From Rhodanobacter sp. Root480 (GTDB taxonomy: Bacteria > Pseudomonadota > Gammaproteobacteria > Xanthomonadales > Rhodanobacteraceae), in NCBI RefSeq assembly GCF_001426645.1, contig NZ_LMEX01000001.1, positions 2,274 through 66,273 of the forward strand: a stretch of DNA of 64,000 bases, read 5' to 3'. Position numbers and translations under genes: made by a program. Positions 312-7,908 of this stretch are shown here, one piece after another (within the stretch, counting starts at the first letter, position 1; every line of letters begins with the position of its first letter). Below the pieces are notes generated by a model. That model was not told where the DNA came from. It saw only the letters and a program-made list of their open reading frames with translations, and did not search any database.

Positions 312-1346
312 ATGAATTCTGTTTGGATGTCGGCCCGGCACGCGATGCCGGTGCTTGCGCTCGGTAGCGCATTCGCGCTGGCCACCCCAGCCGCCAGCGC
401 CGGCGATTTCAGCTTCGGCGGCAAGGTGTTTGCCGATATCAGTCAGCTGCAGAAACAGGACCACGCGGCGGGTACCGACACCCGTGCGTGGGACGTCGAT
501 CTGAAGCGCCTGTACCTGGATGCGGATTACGCGTTCGACCCCGCGTGGTCGGTCCATGTCACCACCGACGTGAACTGGCTGCGCGGCGAGCGCGACCCGG
601 ACGTATGGCTGAAGCACGCCTATGTGCAGCGGCAGTGGGACGGCGGCACCCGCTTGCGCGTGGGCGTGGACGACATGCCCGCGCTGGCGCTGACCAGCAA
701 GTGGTACGGCTACCGCTACATCGACCCCATCGGCACCTCGATCCAGAAGATCGACAGCGCCGCCGATTGGGGCGTGCACCTGACAGGCGTGCTGGCGCCG
801 AAGGTGGATTACGCCGTGTCCGTGGTGACGGGCGGCGGCTACAAACACCCCACCCACGGCCGCCGCGCCGACGTCGAGGCGATGGTGACGTGGCATACCA
901 GCGAACACACGATGCTGGCGCTGGGCGGCTTCGATGGCCAGCTTGCCGCCAGCGCGGATGCGCGGCCGCTTTACCACACCGCGCGCCGGCTCGACCTGCT
1001 GGCAGCCTATGCCAGTGACGTCTGGCGCCTGGGCATGCGCTACAGCTACGCCAGCAACTGGACCACGCTGTACAGCGTGAACAGCGAGCGCAACGGCAGC
1101 TGGTCGGCCTGGGGCAGCGTGCAGGTGGCGCCGCAATGGAGCGTGTTCGCCCGTTACGACCGGGCCCAGCCCACGCGCCTGAACGATCCCTCGCGCCGCG
1201 CGATGTACGCCAACGCCGGCGTGCAGTGGCAACCGGTGAAGCGTCTGCGGCTGGCGCTGGCGTTCAAGCGCAACGCCCTGCGTCGCGACAACGGCGAGAT
1301 CCGGCGCAGCAATGAAGCCGGTATCTGGAGCGAATACTCGTTTTGA
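312..1346 (+). CDS. Putative outer-membrane porin-like protein
   Basis: The 344-residue protein has a signal peptide of about 30 residues ending AASAGD. The rest is rich in alternating aromatic and polar residues typical of beta strands (WSVHVTTDVNWL, WRLGMRYSYASNW), and the chain ends in Phe (SEYSF), the usual terminal residue for BAM-dependent insertion. These features indicate an outer-membrane beta-barrel, perhaps of the phosphate-selective porin O/P type. The substrate is unknown. It lies between two MCP genes and cheW on the same strand, 71 bp after the upstream MCP, which is unusual for a chemotaxis cluster. Confidence 0.7.
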   Translation: MNSVWMSARHAMPVLALGSAFALATPAASAGDFSFGGKVFADISQLQKQDHAAGTDTRAWDVDLKRLYLDADYAFDPAWSVHVTTDVNWLRGERDPDVWLKHAYVQRQWDGGTRLRVGVDDMPALALTSKWYGYRYIDPIGTSIQKIDSAADWGVHLTGVLAPKVDYAVSVVTGGGYKHPTHGRRADVEAMVTWHTSEHTMLALGGFDGQLAASADARPLYHTARRLDLLAAYASDVWRLGMRYSYASNWTTLYSVNSERNGSWSAWGSVQVAPQWSVFARYDRAQPTRLNDPSRRAMYANAGVQWQPVKRLRLALAFKRNALRRDNGEIRRSNEAGIWSEYSF

Positions 1347-1449: not shown

Positions 1450-1956
1450 ATGCACGAAAACAACCAGGACGCGGCAACAACGTTGCAGCAGCTCACTTTC
1501 ACTCTCGCCGGCGAGGAATACGGCGTGGACATTCTGGCCGTACGCGAGATCCGCGGCTGGTCACGGGTGACGCGCATTCCGCAAACCCCGGAACATCTGC
1601 TTGGCGTGCTCAACCTGCGCGGCGCGATCGTGCCGATCATGGATCTGCGCCTGCGTTTCGGGCTGGAACGCGAGAGCTTCGGCGACAACACCGTGGTGAT
1701 CATCGTGGCGGTGGAAGAGCGTCTGTTCGGCATCGTCGTTGACGCTGTGTCCGACGTGGTCGACATCGACCCGGCCGCGATCAAGCCCGTGCCCGACATG
1801 GGCGTGGTGGTGGACACCCGCTATCTGAAAGGCCTGGCCACCCATGTGGAACGCATGGTGATGCTGCTGGATGTGGAAAAACTGATGCGTCCTGAAGACG
1901 TCGAAACGCTGGACGCCGCCATGCCGGACGTCCGTGACGTCGAAGTTGCCGCCTGA
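1450..1956 (+). CDS. cheW: Chemotaxis coupling protein CheW
   Basis: This 168-residue protein is a single CheW domain linking chemoreceptors to the CheA kinase. The domain runs from about residue 13 (FTLAGEEYGVDILAVREI) through LLGVLNLRGAIVPIMDLR to a C-terminal VVDTRYLKGLATHVERMVMLL. The length is typical. The start codon follows a purine-rich AGCAGG. It lies 15 bp upstream of the MCP gene, as expected for a receptor-adaptor operon. cheA and cheY are not in the window and are presumably further upstream. Confidence 0.95.
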   Translation: MHENNQDAATTLQQLTFTLAGEEYGVDILAVREIRGWSRVTRIPQTPEHLLGVLNLRGAIVPIMDLRLRFGLERESFGDNTVVIIVAVEERLFGIVVDAVSDVVDIDPAAIKPVPDMGVVVDTRYLKGLATHVERMVMLLDVEKLMRPEDVETLDAAMPDVRDVEVAA

Positions 1957-1971
1957 CCCCGGGGATAGAAA

Positions 1972-3708
1972 ATGAAGCTAAAAACATTCATGGCACGCTT
2001 TACCAAGATGCCCACGCTGAGCGTCAGGACCCGCCTCATCGGCGTGCTCGGCATGCTTGGCGCGATGTTGATTGGCGGCGCGATCATCGGCCTCGGCGCC
2101 ATGCAGATGCAGAACAACGGCACGCGCGAGATCTATCACGACCAGATGGTGCCGGCGAACCTGGTGGCCACCATCACGCAGCGCTCGCTGATGTCGTACA
2201 TCGCGCTGGGCGAGGCGGCGTCGCTGATGAGCCAGCCCGACCAGATGAAGCAGAAGATCGACGACTTCACCAAGTCGCAGGCCGAGATCGCCGAGCTGAA
2301 GAAGAAGCTCGCCGCGCTGCCCAAGAGCCCGGAAATCGAGAAGCTGTACAAGGATTGGACCTCGACCGACGCCGACCTGGAGTCGAACAGCAAGGATCTG
2401 CTGGACGCGTTCGCCGAGAAGGACGAGGCCTCGCCCGACCTGCTCAACATGCAGGTGCGCCCGCTGATGCTGATGCGCCAGGCCACGCTGGCCAAGATCA
2501 TGCAGGCGCAGCAGGCCACGGCGCTGAGCATCTACGACGGACAGGTGAGCCGCTACCAGACGGTGCGGGCTTTTACGCTGGCCGCGCTTGGCGGTGGCTT
2601 GCTGGTGGCGTTGATCGTCGGGGTGCTGCTGATCCGCTCGATCACCGGCACGCTGCGGCGCGCCGTGGAAGTGGCGCATGCCATCGCCGACGGCAACCTC
2701 GGTCACGATATCGAGGTGGGTCGCAACGACGAACTGGGCAAGCTGTTGAATGCGTTCCGCACCATGGACGATCGCCTCAGTGCGATCGTGGGTGAGGTGC
2801 GCCAGGGCTCCGAGGCGGTCAATACCGCCGCGCAGGAAATCGCCCGCGGCAACGACGACCTCAGCCAGCGTACCCAGGAGCAGGCATCCAGCCTGGAAGA
2901 AACCGCCTCGTCGATGGAGGAAATGACCTCCACCGTGAAGCAGAACGCCGAGAACGCCAGCCATGCCAACCAGTTGGCCCGCGGTGCCCGCGAGCAGGCC
3001 GAGCGCGGCGGCGAAGTGGCCAGTCGCGCGATCCTGGCGATGGGCGAAATCAATGCCTCCAGCAACAAGATCGCCGACATCGTTGGCCTGATCCAGGAGA
3101 TCGCCTTCCAGACCAACCTGCTGGCGTTGAACGCCGCGGTGGAAGCGGCGCGCGCCGGTGAGCAGGGTCGCGGCTTCGCCGTGGTCGCCACCGAGGTGCG
3201 CAGCCTGGCGCAGCGCAGCGCCGGCGCCGCCAAGGAGATCAAGGGGCTGATCGCCGACAGTGCCGAGAAGGTGCGCAGCGGCTCCGAGCTGGTCGACCAG
3301 TCCGGCAAGGCGCTGGCCGAGATCGTGGACAGCGTGAAGAAGGTCACCGACATCGTGGCCGAGATTGCCGCGGCCAGCCAGGAGCAGTCGGCCGGCATCG
3401 ACCAGGTCAACAACGCCGTCATGCAGATGGACGAGATGACCCAGCAGAACGCCGCGCTGGTGGAAGAGGCCTCGGCCGCCGCCCGTGCGATGCAGGAGCA
3501 GGCCGGCGAACTGAGCCGCCAGGTCGGCTTCTTTCACCTGAGCGAGGACGGCGACGACGTGGACGCCGCCGCGGCACAGGCGCGCACGCAGAAAGTGGCG
3601 GTGGCCACCGAGGCCGTGTTCGCCGCCATGCGCAATGCGCCCGCATCGAAAACGTCGCCGGCGACCGCCGACGCCGGCAATGCAAGCGGTGCCTGGAAGG
3701 AGTTCTGA
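1972..3708 (+). CDS. Methyl-accepting chemotaxis protein (transmembrane receptor)
   Basis: The 578-residue chemoreceptor has the classic layout: transmembrane helix 1 at about 22-44, a helical periplasmic ligand domain (four-helix-bundle type) at 45-198, transmembrane helix 2 at about 200-221, HAMP at about 219-272, and a long cytoplasmic signalling helix pair. The CheA/CheW-binding tip is at about 376-412 ([20 protein letters not shown]). The C-terminus is AWKEF, like the CheR/CheB tether pentapeptide of enteric Tar/Tsr. The ligand cannot be told from sequence. The stop codon is directly followed by the cheR GTG start, so the two are probably translationally coupled. Confidence 0.95.
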
Positions 3709-4590
3709 GTGAGCGTGTTGTCCGCCCCGGCTAAGAATGATCCGGCTGCGGCGGGCAGCAATGGCCCCGTGCTGCAAACCGCGGAGTTCGAGTTTCTGCG
3801 CCGTTTCGTGCTGGAGCACTGCGGCATCTCGCTGGGCGACCACAAGCATCAGCTGGTGCAAGGTCGCCTGCAGCGGCGGCTTCGCGCCCTTCGCCTGAAG
3901 GGTTTTGCCGAGTATTGCGACGTGTTGCGGCATGACCCGCAGAGCGAACTGGGTGAACTGGCCAGCGCCATCAGCACCAATGTCACCAGTTTTTTTCGCG
4001 AAGTGCATCACTACGAACTGCTGGAGAACGAGCTGCTTCCCGCGTGGCTGGCACACAAGCAGCGTGCCGGTGACCGCTTGCGCATCTGGTCGGCCGGGTG
4101 TTCCAGCGGCGAGGAGCCGTACGCGCTGGCGATGGTGCTGGCCGAGGCCCTCGCGCGCAACAACAGCACGCTGGACGCGAAGATCCTGGCCACCGACCTG
4201 TCGCCGCAGGCACTGGCCACCGCCCGCAGGGGCGTCTATCCGCTGGACCGCCTCGGCGGCATCAGCGCGGAGCGCTGCCGTCGCTGGTTGCTGCGCGGCA
4301 CCGGCGAGTACGAAGGCCTCGCCAGCGTGCATCCGCAGCTGCGCGAGCTGGTGACGATCCAGCCGCTGAACCTGCTGCATGACTGGCCCATGAGTGGGCC
4401 GTTCGATGCCATTTTCTGCCGCAACGTGGTGATCTATTTCGATCAGCCCACCAAGCAGCGCCTGTTCCGCCGCTACGCGCAGTTATTGCCGGTGGGTGGT
4501 TACCTTTTTCTCGGTCATTCCGAATCGCTGCATGGCATCAACGACGATTTCGAACTGATTGGCCGCACGGTCTACCGGAAACGCGGATGA
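3709..4590 (+). CDS. cheR: Chemotaxis protein methyltransferase CheR
   Basis: The enzyme transfers methyl groups from S-adenosylmethionine to receptor glutamates during adaptation. It has 293 residues, with the helical CheR_N domain at about 20-80 and a Rossmann-like SAM domain with WSAGCSSGEEPYALAM at about 126-141 and CRNVVIYF at about 237. The GTG start immediately follows the MCP stop; a second in-frame GTG lies two codons later. The 3' end overlaps cheD by ATGA, so translation is probably coupled. Confidence 0.96.
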   Translation: MSVLSAPAKNDPAAAGSNGPVLQTAEFEFLRRFVLEHCGISLGDHKHQLVQGRLQRRLRALRLKGFAEYCDVLRHDPQSELGELASAISTNVTSFFREVHHYELLENELLPAWLAHKQRAGDRLRIWSAGCSSGEEPYALAMVLAEALARNNSTLDAKILATDLSPQALATARRGVYPLDRLGGISAERCRRWLLRGTGEYEGLASVHPQLRELVTIQPLNLLHDWPMSGPFDAIFCRNVVIYFDQPTKQRLFRRYAQLLPVGGYLFLGHSESLHGINDDFELIGRTVYRKRG

Positions 4591-5234
4591 ATATTTCGAC
4601 CTTCGCGAAACCCACGGCGCCGCCGCCGCGTGCGCTTCCCGGTTTCGAACATCTGCGTCGCTACTGGGACCCGGTCAGCGCGTGCATGACGGTGAAGGTC
4701 CTGCCCGGCGAGCTGTATGTCAGCACCCAGGAAGAGCTCGTCACCACGGTGCTGGGTTCGTGCGTATCAGCCTGCATCCACGACGCGCGCCGGGGTATCG
4801 GCGGCATGAACCATTTCATGCTGCCCGAGCCGCTGGGCGAACGCGATGGCTGGTCGTCCACCATCAGCCGCGCGGCGCGCTACGGCAGCGACGCGATGGA
4901 GCAGCTGATCAACGGTGTCCTCAATGCCGGCGGCCAGCGCGCCGACCTGCAGGTGAAGATTTTCGGCGGCGGCCGTGTGCTGGCCCAGCTCAGCGATGTG
5001 GGGCAGCGCAACATCGAGTTCGTGCAGCGCTACATCGAAGTCGAAAAGCTCAATCTGTGCGCCTCCGACCTGGGCGACATCTACCCCCGCCAGGTGCAGT
5101 TTTTTCCGCAGAGTGGCCGCGTGCGGGTACGCCAGTTGCGCCGCCGCGACGATGTGGCGCTGGTGGCCGACGAGCGCGGTTACCTCAAGCGTTTGGCAAA
5201 TGATCCGATAAAGGGTGAGGTCGAGTTGTTCTAG
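4587..5234 (+). CDS. cheD: Chemoreceptor glutamine deamidase CheD
   Basis: CheD deamidates receptor glutamines, creating methylation sites; in Bacillus and Thermotoga it also binds CheC. The 215 residues include a 45-50 residue N-terminal extension relative to short CheD proteins. The catalytic Cys59 is in VLGSCVSACIHD and the His76 in GMNHFMLP. The protein ends GEVELF, almost the same tail as the receptor-like protein at 6423-7601 (GEIELF), which suggests a shared docking peptide. It overlaps cheR by 4 bp and precedes cheB. Confidence 0.95.
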   Translation: MNISTFAKPTAPPPRALPGFEHLRRYWDPVSACMTVKVLPGELYVSTQEELVTTVLGSCVSACIHDARRGIGGMNHFMLPEPLGERDGWSSTISRAARYGSDAMEQLINGVLNAGGQRADLQVKIFGGGRVLAQLSDVGQRNIEFVQRYIEVEKLNLCASDLGDIYPRQVQFFPQSGRVRVRQLRRRDDVALVADERGYLKRLANDPIKGEVELF

Positions 5235-5304
5235 CGACCGCGGCGGCAGGCACGCGGATTGACAGTGCTGTCGCATGCGACAGGGTTTGGATTACGGCAG
5301 GGTG

Positions 5305-6405
5305 ATGGACAACATGGAAAGAGTGCGTGTTCTGGTGGTCGATGACTCCGCATTGGTGCGCAAGCTGATGTCGACCATGCTTGCCTGCGATCCGGCGATC
5401 GAGGTGGTCGGCACCGCTGCCGATCCGTTGATCGCGCGCGAGAAGATCAAGCAGCTGAACCCGCACGTGCTCACCCTGGACGTCGAGATGCCGCGCATGG
5501 ACGGCCTCACCTTCCTGGAGAACCTGATGCGGCTGCGACCGATGCCGGTGGTGATGGTGTCGTCGCTGACCGTCGAGGGCGCGGACGTGACCTTGCGTGC
5601 GCTGGAACTGGGCGCGGTGGATTTCTTCGCCAAGCCCGACAGCGACCTGGCCAGCCGCTTCGGCGAAAGCGCGCAGGAGATCTGCCACAAGGTGAAGATG
5701 GCGGCCACCACGCGGCCGCGCGCGCGCACCGCCGTGCGCAAGCTGGACGTGCCGCCACGCCTGTCGGCCGACGCCGTGCTGCCGCGCGCGCAGACCGCGG
5801 GTACCCGTGGCGGCAGCCCGCTGATCGCGGTGGGCGCATCCACCGGCGGCACCGAAGCGGTGCGCGTGCTGCTGGAAGCGATGCCACCGGATGCGCCGCC
5901 GATCCTGGTGACCCAGCACATCCCGGCGGCGTTCAGCGGCCCCTTCGCGGCGCGGATGGACCGCTGCTCGGCGATGCGCGTATGCGAGGCCCGCGACGGC
6001 CAGCCCATCCAGAGCGGCCATGTCTACATCGCGCCGGGCAGCCACCACCTGCTGGTGATGTGGGACGGCGCGCGCTACGTGTGCCGTTTGCACGACGGCC
6101 CGGCGGTGAACCGGCACAAGCCCAGCGTGGACGTGCTGTTCCGTTCGCTGGCGGCCAGCGCCGGGGCGGCCACGGTCGCGGTGCTGCTTACCGGCATGGG
6201 CGACGATGGCGCGCGCGGCCTGCTGGAATTGCATCAGGCTGGCGCCACCACCCTGGTGCAGGATGAAGAAAGCTCGGTCGTCTGGGGCATGCCCGGTTCG
6301 GCCTGGAAGCTCGGTGCGGCTAGCGAAATGCAGCCGCTGGACCATATTGCCGCGCGCCTGCTTGCGCTGACGCGCCAAACTCACGTAAGCGCCACGAGCG
6401 CCTGA
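5305..6405 (+). CDS. cheB: Chemotaxis response regulator protein-glutamate methylesterase CheB
   Basis: This is a receiver domain plus methylesterase domain that removes receptor methyl groups when phosphorylated. Counting from the ATG at 5305 (366 aa), the phosphoacceptor is Asp59 in [12 protein letters not shown]. The catalytic triad is complete: Ser179 (GASTGG), His205 (TQHIP) and Asp301 (GMGDDG), with the same spacing as Salmonella CheB (26 and 96 residues). The frame is open to an upstream ATG at 5275, and another ATG is at 5314. The internal start is preferred because the receiver core begins right after it. Confidence 0.95.
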
Positions 6406-6422: not shown

Positions 6423-7601
6423 ATGCTTTTCACTGCCCCCAGCGCCACCAAATATCCCGTCTACGGCGGGCTTGCCAGTGCGGTTGCCTTGCTGCTTGCC
6501 CTGTTCGTGCGCGAAGCCTGGCTGGCGCCGTTGCTGATCGTGCTTCTCACCATCGTGTGGATCATCGAAAGCCGGACACGCAACACTGAACAGGTGCCCG
6601 CGGCGGCGCCCGGCAACATCGAGCCCGTGCGCGAGGCGCTGGATGACATGCGCGGCGCAGTGGTGGACGAGTTGGGCCACGCCACCCGCGAGCTGCACCA
6701 GGGCCTGGACCTGCTGCGCGATGCCGTGCTCGAACTCGGCGGCGGCTTCGACGGCTTGTCCAACAAGACCGCGCTGCAGCAGTCGCTGCTGAAACAGATC
6801 ATCGGCGGGCAGGAGGGTGGTGTCTCGGTGCAGGATTTCGCGGCGCGCACTGCCGACCTGCTGCAGCATTTCGTGGGCATGATCGTGCAGATGTCGCGCG
6901 AGAGCCTGCGCATCGTCTACCGCATCGACGGCATGGCCAAGGAAATGGACGCCGTGTTCGGCCTGCTGCGCAACGTCAACACCATTGCCGAAGAAACCAA
7001 CCTGCTGGCGCTGAACGCGGCGATCGAGGCGGCGCGCGCGGGCGAATCCGGTCGCGGTTTCGCGGTGGTCGCCGGCGAGATCCGCAACCTGGCCAGCAAC
7101 TCCAACCAGTTCAACGAGCAGATCGGCAGCCACGTGGAGCGTGCGCGCGCCGCGATGGAGCAGCTGCGCGGGCTGGTGGGCACCATGGCCTCGCAGGATC
7201 TGAACGTGGCGCTGTCGGCCAAGGGCGGCATCGACGCGATGATGGCGCACGTCACCGAGAGCGACGCGCGTACCAGCGCCGTGGCCGACCAGGTCGTCGA
7301 AATCAGCCGTGGCCTGGGCAGCGACGTGTCCACCACCATCCGCTCGCTGCAGTTCGAGGACATCCTCAGCCAGCTGATCAACCAGACCCGCACGCGCCTG
7401 ATGGAGCTGCAGGAAGTCACCGCCGAGTGCACCCGCGACATCGAAGAGCTGGCCTGCGGGCCGGACGACGCCGAAGTGCTGCAGGCCCACGCGCAGCGCC
7501 TGCGCAGCCGCCTGGCCATCCAGCGCGAGAAAGCCCGGCTGCGTTCGCGCGGCCCGGCCTTGCAAAGCTCGATGGACGCCGGCGAGATCGAGCTATTCTG
7601 A
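6423..7601 (+). CDS. Membrane receptor-like protein with MCP signalling tip and CheZ-like DxxxQ motif
   Basis: The 392-residue protein has a tight N-terminal transmembrane hairpin (about 14-31 and 33-49) and no periplasmic sensor. A coiled coil follows, then a receptor-type signalling tip at 187-212 ([19 protein letters not shown]). Downstream it leaves the MCP pattern: at 308-319 it reads [12 protein letters not shown], with Asp313 and Gln317 spaced like the CheZ phosphatase pair (E. coli D143/Q147 in DFQDLTGQVI). It ends GEIELF, like CheD. I infer a membrane-anchored hybrid that may bind the signalling array and act on CheY-P. It sits between cheB and a STAS gene, so a chemotaxis role is firm but the phosphatase activity is not. 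Confidence 0.75.
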
Positions 7602-7611
7602 GGAACCCACC

Positions 7612-7908
7612 ATGATCGTCCACCACGACAGCGACAACGATTGCCTCACCCTGCAACTGGGCGAGCGCTTCGACTTCAGTATCCACCGTGAATTCCACGA
7701 CGCCTGCCTGCGCGACGGTGTCGCCCGCAGCTATGTCATCGACTTCAGCGAAGTGAGCAGCATGGACAGCTCCGCGCTGGGCATGCTGCTTCTGCTGCGC
7801 GAGCATGCCGGCGCGGACAAGGCCGACATCCGCATCGTCAACGCCGGTACCGAACTGCGCGGCACCTTGCGCGTGGCCGGCTTCGACAAGCTGTTCGTAC
7901 TGCATTGA
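7612..7908 (+). CDS. STAS-domain protein (SpoIIAA-like anti-sigma factor antagonist type)
   Basis: The 98-residue protein is a single STAS domain. The conserved loop SSMDSSALGMLLLL at about 49-62 matches the phosphorylation loop of SpoIIAA, with Ser54 at the phosphorylated position. The domain usually partners with a serine kinase or another regulator. No kinase or phosphatase of that kind is next to it. It starts 10 bp after the receptor-like gene and ends at the operon terminator, so it is the last gene of the chemotaxis operon. Its role there is unknown. Confidence 0.85.
   Translation: MIVHHDSDNDCLTLQLGERFDFSIHREFHDACLRDGVARSYVIDFSEVSSMDSSALGMLLLLREHAGADKADIRIVNAGTELRGTLRVAGFDKLFVLH

Follow-up and report, generated by a model that had tools for sequence, protein, structure and literature searches.

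We analyzed a 64,000-nucleotide stretch of the Rhodanobacter sp. Root480 genome (the window; C1:2274-66273), which carries a same-strand run of genes in the order cheW, MCP, cheR, cheD, cheB, X, STAS. The sixth gene, X, encodes an MCP-type protein with a CheZ-like DxxxQ motif. The genes of the run and the features of X are as follows (window coordinates).

1450..1956, + strand: CheW of the X cluster (Pfam)
1972..3708, + strand: MCP with TarH sensor and HAMP, ending GAWKEF, WxxF type (sequence, Pfam)
3709..4590, + strand: CheR (Pfam)
4587..5234, + strand: CheD, with a C-terminal hexapeptide GEVELF (5214-5231) that matches the X tail (Pfam, tails)
5275..6405, + strand: CheB (Pfam)
6423..7601, + strand: X, McpA-like, MCP-type, with CheZ-like DxxxQ, 392 aa (open reading frame, Pfam, conservation)
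6453..6578, + strand: hydrophobic N-terminal stretch of X, residues ~11-52, probable membrane hairpin (hydropathy; model helices 13-28 and 34-53)
6711..6779, + strand: conserved N-arm block of X, residues 97-119, with A101, F109 and Q119 (conservation; AxxxLxxxF in tip-less relatives)
6915..7313, + strand: MCPsignal match of X, residues 165-297 (Pfam PF00015, E 6.1e-24)
6999..7058, + strand: signalling tip of X, residues 193-212 (sequence, conservation)
7179..7241, + strand: conserved block of X, residues 253-273, with D259 and K267 (conservation)
7347..7373, + strand: CheZ-like motif LQFEDILSQ of X, residues 309-317, including D313 and Q317 (conservation, profile alignment)
7572..7598, + strand: conserved C-terminal tail of X, residues 384-392, MDAGEIELF (conservation, motif coupling)
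7612..7908, + strand: STAS-domain protein directly after X (Pfam, homologous loci)

A porin-like open reading frame precedes cheW (window 312-1346; Porin_O_P E 0.0019, below the cut-off), and further MCP genes lie upstream of it on the contig.

The original prediction had described X as a receptor-like protein of 392 aa with a signalling tip, no sensor domain, Asp313 and Gln317 within residues 308-319, and the C-terminus GEIELF. We observed that the coordinates, frame and residues were all correct. MCPsignal was the sole Pfam family above cut-off, and the Pfam scan found no sensor or HAMP domain, so the ligand-binding part of a canonical chemoreceptor is missing from X. The CheA/CheW-binding tip is a full MCP tip by sequence and Pfam, and is degraded or absent in some relatives. 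The N-arm block and the DxxxQ on the opposite arm lie at similar distances from the tip, and the two may pair with each other. Residues 253-273 are also highly conserved.

We compared X with homologous loci; public genomes gave 91 related stretches, of which the best 80 were used. Among these, the closest X homologue was that of Rhodanobacter fulvus (97% protein identity), and the titles were mostly Rhodanobacter, Dyella, Frateuria or Luteibacter. A STAS gene followed X in 80/80 of these loci and cheB preceded it in 79/80; one locus showed X and STAS alone. The order cheR-cheD-cheB-X-STAS equals the F7 stage 1 order, cheR-cheD-cheB-mcpA-STAS, as given in the accessible text of PMC7184735, where F7 clusters of stages 1-2 are described as having cheY and no cheZ. 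Two further arrangements were seen. In two loci (L168, L169), X stands directly before a cheY-cheA-cheW-MCP(WEEF)-cheR-cheD-cheB cluster. In three loci of another family of the same order (L146, L147, L148), X has the tail GAGTVELF and the fetched stretches hold no che gene; the L146 stretch opens at the contig start, shortly before X.

The absence of cheZ that had been noted for the window held there, but not for the genome. The genome's single CheZ match is a true cheZ in a flagellar cluster, fliA-cheY-cheZ-cheA, on contig C4. Of the 80 X-bearing genomes searched, 72 also carry CheZ, and this CheZ could serve both systems. The X cluster most likely has its cheA and cheY at the start of C4, where a STAS gene and an MCP truncated by the contig end lie beside them. 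C4 appears to join C1, because MCP genes are cut at both contig ends; as the assembly breaks inside MCP genes of the X cluster, the number of MCPs there is uncertain. The CheC, CheX and FliY phosphatases, which use an ExxN motif, would act on the same substrate class as X. We observed no such Pfam match in X, and no match to CheC or CheX above cut-off in its genome.

We assessed the DxxxQ motif across the family, because a single sequence alone means nothing: shuffled copies of X held 1.12 DxxxQ motifs on average, and 69% held at least one. D313 and Q317 were invariant in X and its 80 close relatives (81/81). Among 53 representatives below 70% identity, D313 and Q317 were each kept in 52/53, F392 in 52/53 and F311 in 53/53; ranked by conservation among the 392 positions, F311 was 1, F392 2, D313 9 and Q317 12. 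The exception (L163) was a tail-less upstream tandem copy. A profile built on residues 257-392 matched in 81/369 sampled genomes of the class and 76/398 of the phylum (the two samples overlap, and each includes the genome of X itself). All fetched loci together gave 157 distinct matching frames, of which 153 hold [LM][QR]F.D...Q; the other four are tail-less upstream tandem copies from three genomes, one pair having been fetched twice. Most X proteins were fetched with this profile, which contains the motif, the exception being the CheD-fetched set described below. The motif Asp lay 120 residues after the tip Asn in all 153 unique frames that combine a tip, the motif and a tail ending in F (roughly half are close relatives), whereas N-arm and tail lengths varied; one variant-tip protein had 122. 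The motif was found in 0/123 WxxF-ending MCPs. A chance motif is ruled out by the family conservation and the fixed tip spacing, not by the single sequence.

In 81/81 sequences, positions 387, 389, 391 and 392 of the C-terminal tail were G, I, L and F, and 388 and 390 were E or D. The tail lacks the -x-[HFYW]-x(2)-[HFYW] pentapeptide. The tail had been likened to the CheY-binding end of CheZ. It is acidic-hydrophobic and F-ending, as predicted, but GEIELF is closer to GEVELF of the CheD in the same operon than to CheZ tails, which are of the DDxDxLLSSLGF type. CheD is a receptor deamidase; the CheD of this operon belongs to another Pfam family than X and shares its tail type, G[ED][IV]ELF. CheD tails in the homologous loci read GEVELF in 78/79 and GDVELF in 1/79. 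Similar likenesses occur elsewhere: EEITFF with ADITFF (L333), and RPNIELF with SSNIELF (L223). A whole-genome search with the tail pattern returned CheD and X only, but the backward control pattern also matched twice. We considered a CheD tail confined to X-bearing genomes, and this was not supported: a loose tail pattern was present in 37/50 CheD frames from X-bearing loci (a hand-chosen set with some genomes counted twice, several of whose misses end GGVELF or DAELF, outside the pattern) and also in 26/50 CheD frames from genomes without an X match. Both structural models leave the tail unordered, with low confidence in its last residues. By analogy with the CheZ C-terminus, the X tail could be a docking peptide for CheY-P, or it could bind another shared partner.

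In some relatives the receptor parts are degraded or missing. In 16/16 proteins from outside the class (L150-L165; the downstream copy counted where a locus has two), LNARIV replaces LNAAIE in the tip, no hydrophobic 19-residue window exceeds 1.6, and motif and tail are both kept; these frames are mostly 334-369 aa, one being 457. Five proteins without the tip (L167, L176, L186, L228, L229) also keep both motif and tail. The N-arm pattern AxxxLxxxF is kept in these five and in L331, which is tip-less as well. L176 (212-aa frame), L186 (207-aa frame) and L331 adjoin a cheY. L228 (234 aa) and L229 (226 aa) come after cheB, and no CheZ was found in their genomes. Since relatives that have no tip or no hydrophobic stretch still carry motif and tail, these two features, rather than tip and anchor, are the constant core of the family. 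The small free-standing relatives scanned had no match over a Pfam cut-off (11 proteins) and none in NCBIfam at E up to 0.01 (seven proteins).

Tandem duplicates of X were read in three pairs (L163, L164/L184, L187); two more genomes (G422, G441), outside these counts, also hold a second match to X. The upstream copy lacked the tail in 3/3 and had Asp replaced by Glu in 3/3, and Gln was lost in 2/3. To judge from their residues, these upstream copies resemble a natural inactive partner.

We also performed a motif-independent search anchored on CheD, in 369 genomes of the class. CheD was present in 77/81 genomes with X compared to 44/288 without it (Fisher p 3e-42; listings compared by eye). 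From genomes without an X match we took 27 stretches around CheDs with tail-like ends. F.D...Q occurred in 24/914 frames of at least 100 aa in these stretches, and in 8/8 of the non-CheD frames that end [IVA][DET][LF]F. Seven of the eight are small (163-286 aa), with no Pfam match above cut-off and no hydrophobic window above 1.6. These FxDxxxQ proteins with a tail (L310, L313, L314, L318, L325, L331, L332), whose starts are not fixed, lie in CheD-bearing che clusters, and from their sequences they are possible free-standing phosphatases. The eighth is MCP-like and lies beside cheY and CheD (L333). No protein with such a tail and motif was seen in 19 of the 27 CheD stretches. Across all collected frames, a set largely fetched by the X profile, the motif was present in 147/147 non-CheD frames with the strict tail compared to 156/4988 control frames.

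The comparison of X with CheZ gave a mixed result. X had no CheZ Pfam row at E up to 1, and the CheZ match was absent in nine diverse relatives and in eight further proteins. The X profile alone aligned with CheZ in register, pairing D with D and Q with Q; it reached E 2.4e-4 at a probability of 44%, E 1.3e-4 (27%) under another setting, and E 1.4e-3 (7%) with the roles exchanged. With the motif masked, the match weakened to E 0.031; of 40 seven-column block shuffles, 2 scored better than the real alignment. Ordinary MCPs reached E 0.05-0.10 against CheZ in 6/6 draws from 116. X as a plain CheZ is ruled out, since X does not match the CheZ Pfam model and the signal of the X-only profile hangs on the motif.

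A second MCP-like group of eight proteins, picked for sub-cut-off CheZ Pfam matches (E 4e-5 to 8e-4; 19.8-24 bits vs a cut-off of 30.7), aligned with CheZ at E 4.8e-8 (95%) and with X at E 8.7e-14. Masking lowered its CheZ match to E 7e-4, and the best of 60 block shuffles reached 3.9e-6. X and the second group combined matched CheZ at E 1.5e-6 (90%) over 65 columns. Twelve sub-cut-off CheZ matches were listed, 11 fetched and 8 used; L222, L224 and L225 were left out. Weak CheZ matches are unspecific, because these 3 of the 11 fetched lack FxDxxxQ. L224, a 682-aa MCP-like frame, has QDLTTQ near its C-terminus and no such tail. The MCP-like proteins L215-L221 carry LQFQDRxxQ or FQFQDRTSQ, and have weak CheZ matches; their tails are mainly of NITFF, DITFF or ELTFF type, and most of these proteins lie beside cheY. 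VC1394 of V. cholerae may, we assume, belong to this kind.

In a model of residues 257-392, the motif lies inside one long helix (pLDDT 80). The full-length model was poor (pLDDT 59.6), and all its PDB matches with E <0.001 were receptors. Each model comprises one chain, and confidence was low for one of the two; Foldseek searches returned either receptors or no hit below E 1. Profile A1 found no relative among PDB sequences. X shares with CheZ (PF04344) the DxxxQ on a long helix, D-to-D and Q-to-Q, an acidic-hydrophobic F-ending tail and an expected helical hairpin; it differs in lacking the Pfam match and in having an MCP tip and a hydrophobic N-terminus. The predicted DxxxQ at the D143/Q147 spacing of CheZ is borne out by family-level conservation, fixed tip spacing, persistence in relatives that lack tip and membrane stretch, coupling to the tail and the in-register alignment. 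The profile comparison puts the motif in register, but X alone is weak and does not match the CheZ Pfam model. The sequence comparisons make a strong case for equivalence of the two motifs and are suggestive of common descent with CheZ. For X itself, common descent is not established, because masking drops X to E 0.031, two shuffles beat the alignment and the settings vary.

By gene order and described architecture, X resembles the McpA-like receptors CttP/PA0180, VCA1088 and SO_2117. The accessible parts of four papers treat these as F7-system receptors and call their role and conserved C-terminus unclear (PMC7184735, PMC7534058, PMC9855816, PMC11940527). X shares with them the MCP tip, the sensor-less membrane segment, the place next to cheB/STAS and the conserved C-terminus without pentapeptide. 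The difference is that the papers, so far as accessible, describe chemoreceptors and name no phosphatase motif. The paper passages, titles and abstract openings we covered, which could miss a prior mention, contained no phosphatase proposal for McpA-like proteins; PMC10653921 and PMC5907407 had nothing on McpA-like proteins or the X family in the parts available. The McpA-like protein is reported not to be needed in the F7 array (PMC7184735, in part), and a Comamonas F7 che cluster is reported with both CheD and CheZ (PMC6391922, in part). The DxxxQ in X suggests a job for this known receptor family.

Taken together, the sequence data make it probable that X uses a chemoreceptor scaffold to act as a CheZ-type phosphatase on the receiver domain of a response regulator. 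The two arms would dimerize as in receptors, giving a four-helix bundle at the level of D313 and Q317, and the tail would dock the substrate or a partner. Gln147 of CheZ positions the attacking water. By analogy, Gln317 would do the same, so that the phospho-aspartate would be hydrolysed. The most likely substrate would be CheY of the same F7 cluster, which is without cheZ. Through its tip, the enzyme would be able to join a receptor array or come under the control of one. If the hairpin turn is near residue 206, the site is ~107 residues away by arithmetic, or ~16 nm along the helix; within an array, this distance would put the site closer to the membrane, well away from the CheA layer. CheD, which shares the tail, would bind the docking partner that X binds, and adaptation and the removal of phosphate could be linked in this way. 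Against the phosphatase reading stand the missing CheZ Pfam match, the dependence of the X-only alignment on the motif, the CheZ carried by most X-bearing genomes, the 19 CheD stretches without such a protein, the receptor roles published for relatives, the Comamonas cluster with CheZ and the poor full-length model.

A rather doubtful branch of this reading, whose odds overlap with it, is that the CheZ-type phosphatase acts on another substrate: the CheB receiver, the receiver of a protein whose gene comes after STAS in many relatives, or the flagellar CheY. CheY-similar frames of ~560-630 aa do come after STAS in several loci, and in the accessible accounts mcpA, STAS and a serine phosphatase gene were moved and lost jointly in F7 evolution (PMC7184735), while McpA proteins were reported in association with the F6 array (PMC7184735, PMC9855816). 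Against this, the one SpoIIE match above cut-off in the X genome is SiaA-like, with no receiver domain seen on reading its sequence, and the tip-less L176, L186 and L331 adjoin a cheY.

It is improbable that X is an ordinary sensor-less chemoreceptor whose tail serves as a tether for CheR (or CheB) in the manner of the WxxF pentapeptide of other receptors, LQFEDILSQ being a structural feature of the coiled coil. The full MCP tip fits such a receptor, as do three published points, each from a source available in part: SO_2117 clusters with the F6 kinase CheA3, and its overproduction enhances swimming like that of three other MCPs (PMC9855816); a review of V. cholerae places Mlp44 (VCA1088) in System III on the basis of CheR methylation tests that its authors have not published; and the same review suggests that an E-W/V-E-X-F end could be a site for CheR3 (PMC11940527). 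However, relatives without tip or hydrophobic stretch still hold motif and tail, CheD carries the tail without being a receptor, and WxxF-ending MCPs do not carry the motif. The P. aeruginosa McpA C-terminus showed no interaction with any of four CheR homologs (PMC7184735, in part). We rate the CheR tether lower because the tip-less relatives and CheD share the tail. Least probable of all is that X and its relatives bind CheY-P without hydrolysis, as a phosphate-dependent anchor or sink at the array; tail and conserved surface would suffice for binding, but that has no call for an exact D and Q at the CheZ spacing, and in the duplicates loss of the tail accompanies loss of Asp and mostly of Gln.

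More tentatively, the phosphatase reading of X may extend to the family. The sequences leave room for the proposal, which we hold with more doubt than confidence, that McpA-like proteins are a branch of a wide DxxxQ phosphatase superfamily serving che clusters without cheZ. This superfamily would span full receptors, degraded-tip proteins and small free-standing proteins; CheZ would belong to it or have arisen from it, and the docking tail shared with CheD would couple phosphate removal to receptor adaptation. The phosphatase hypothesis for McpA-like proteins would by itself answer three questions raised by ancestral F7 systems: the role of McpA-like proteins, the conservation of their C-terminus and the output of clusters with cheY and without cheZ (Ortega et al. 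2020, PMC7184735, in part). If this hypothesis is right, the distinction between receptors and phosphatases in chemotaxis would blur, proteins annotated as receptors in many species would need new names, and the origin of CheZ from a receptor-like hairpin would become a concrete proposal.
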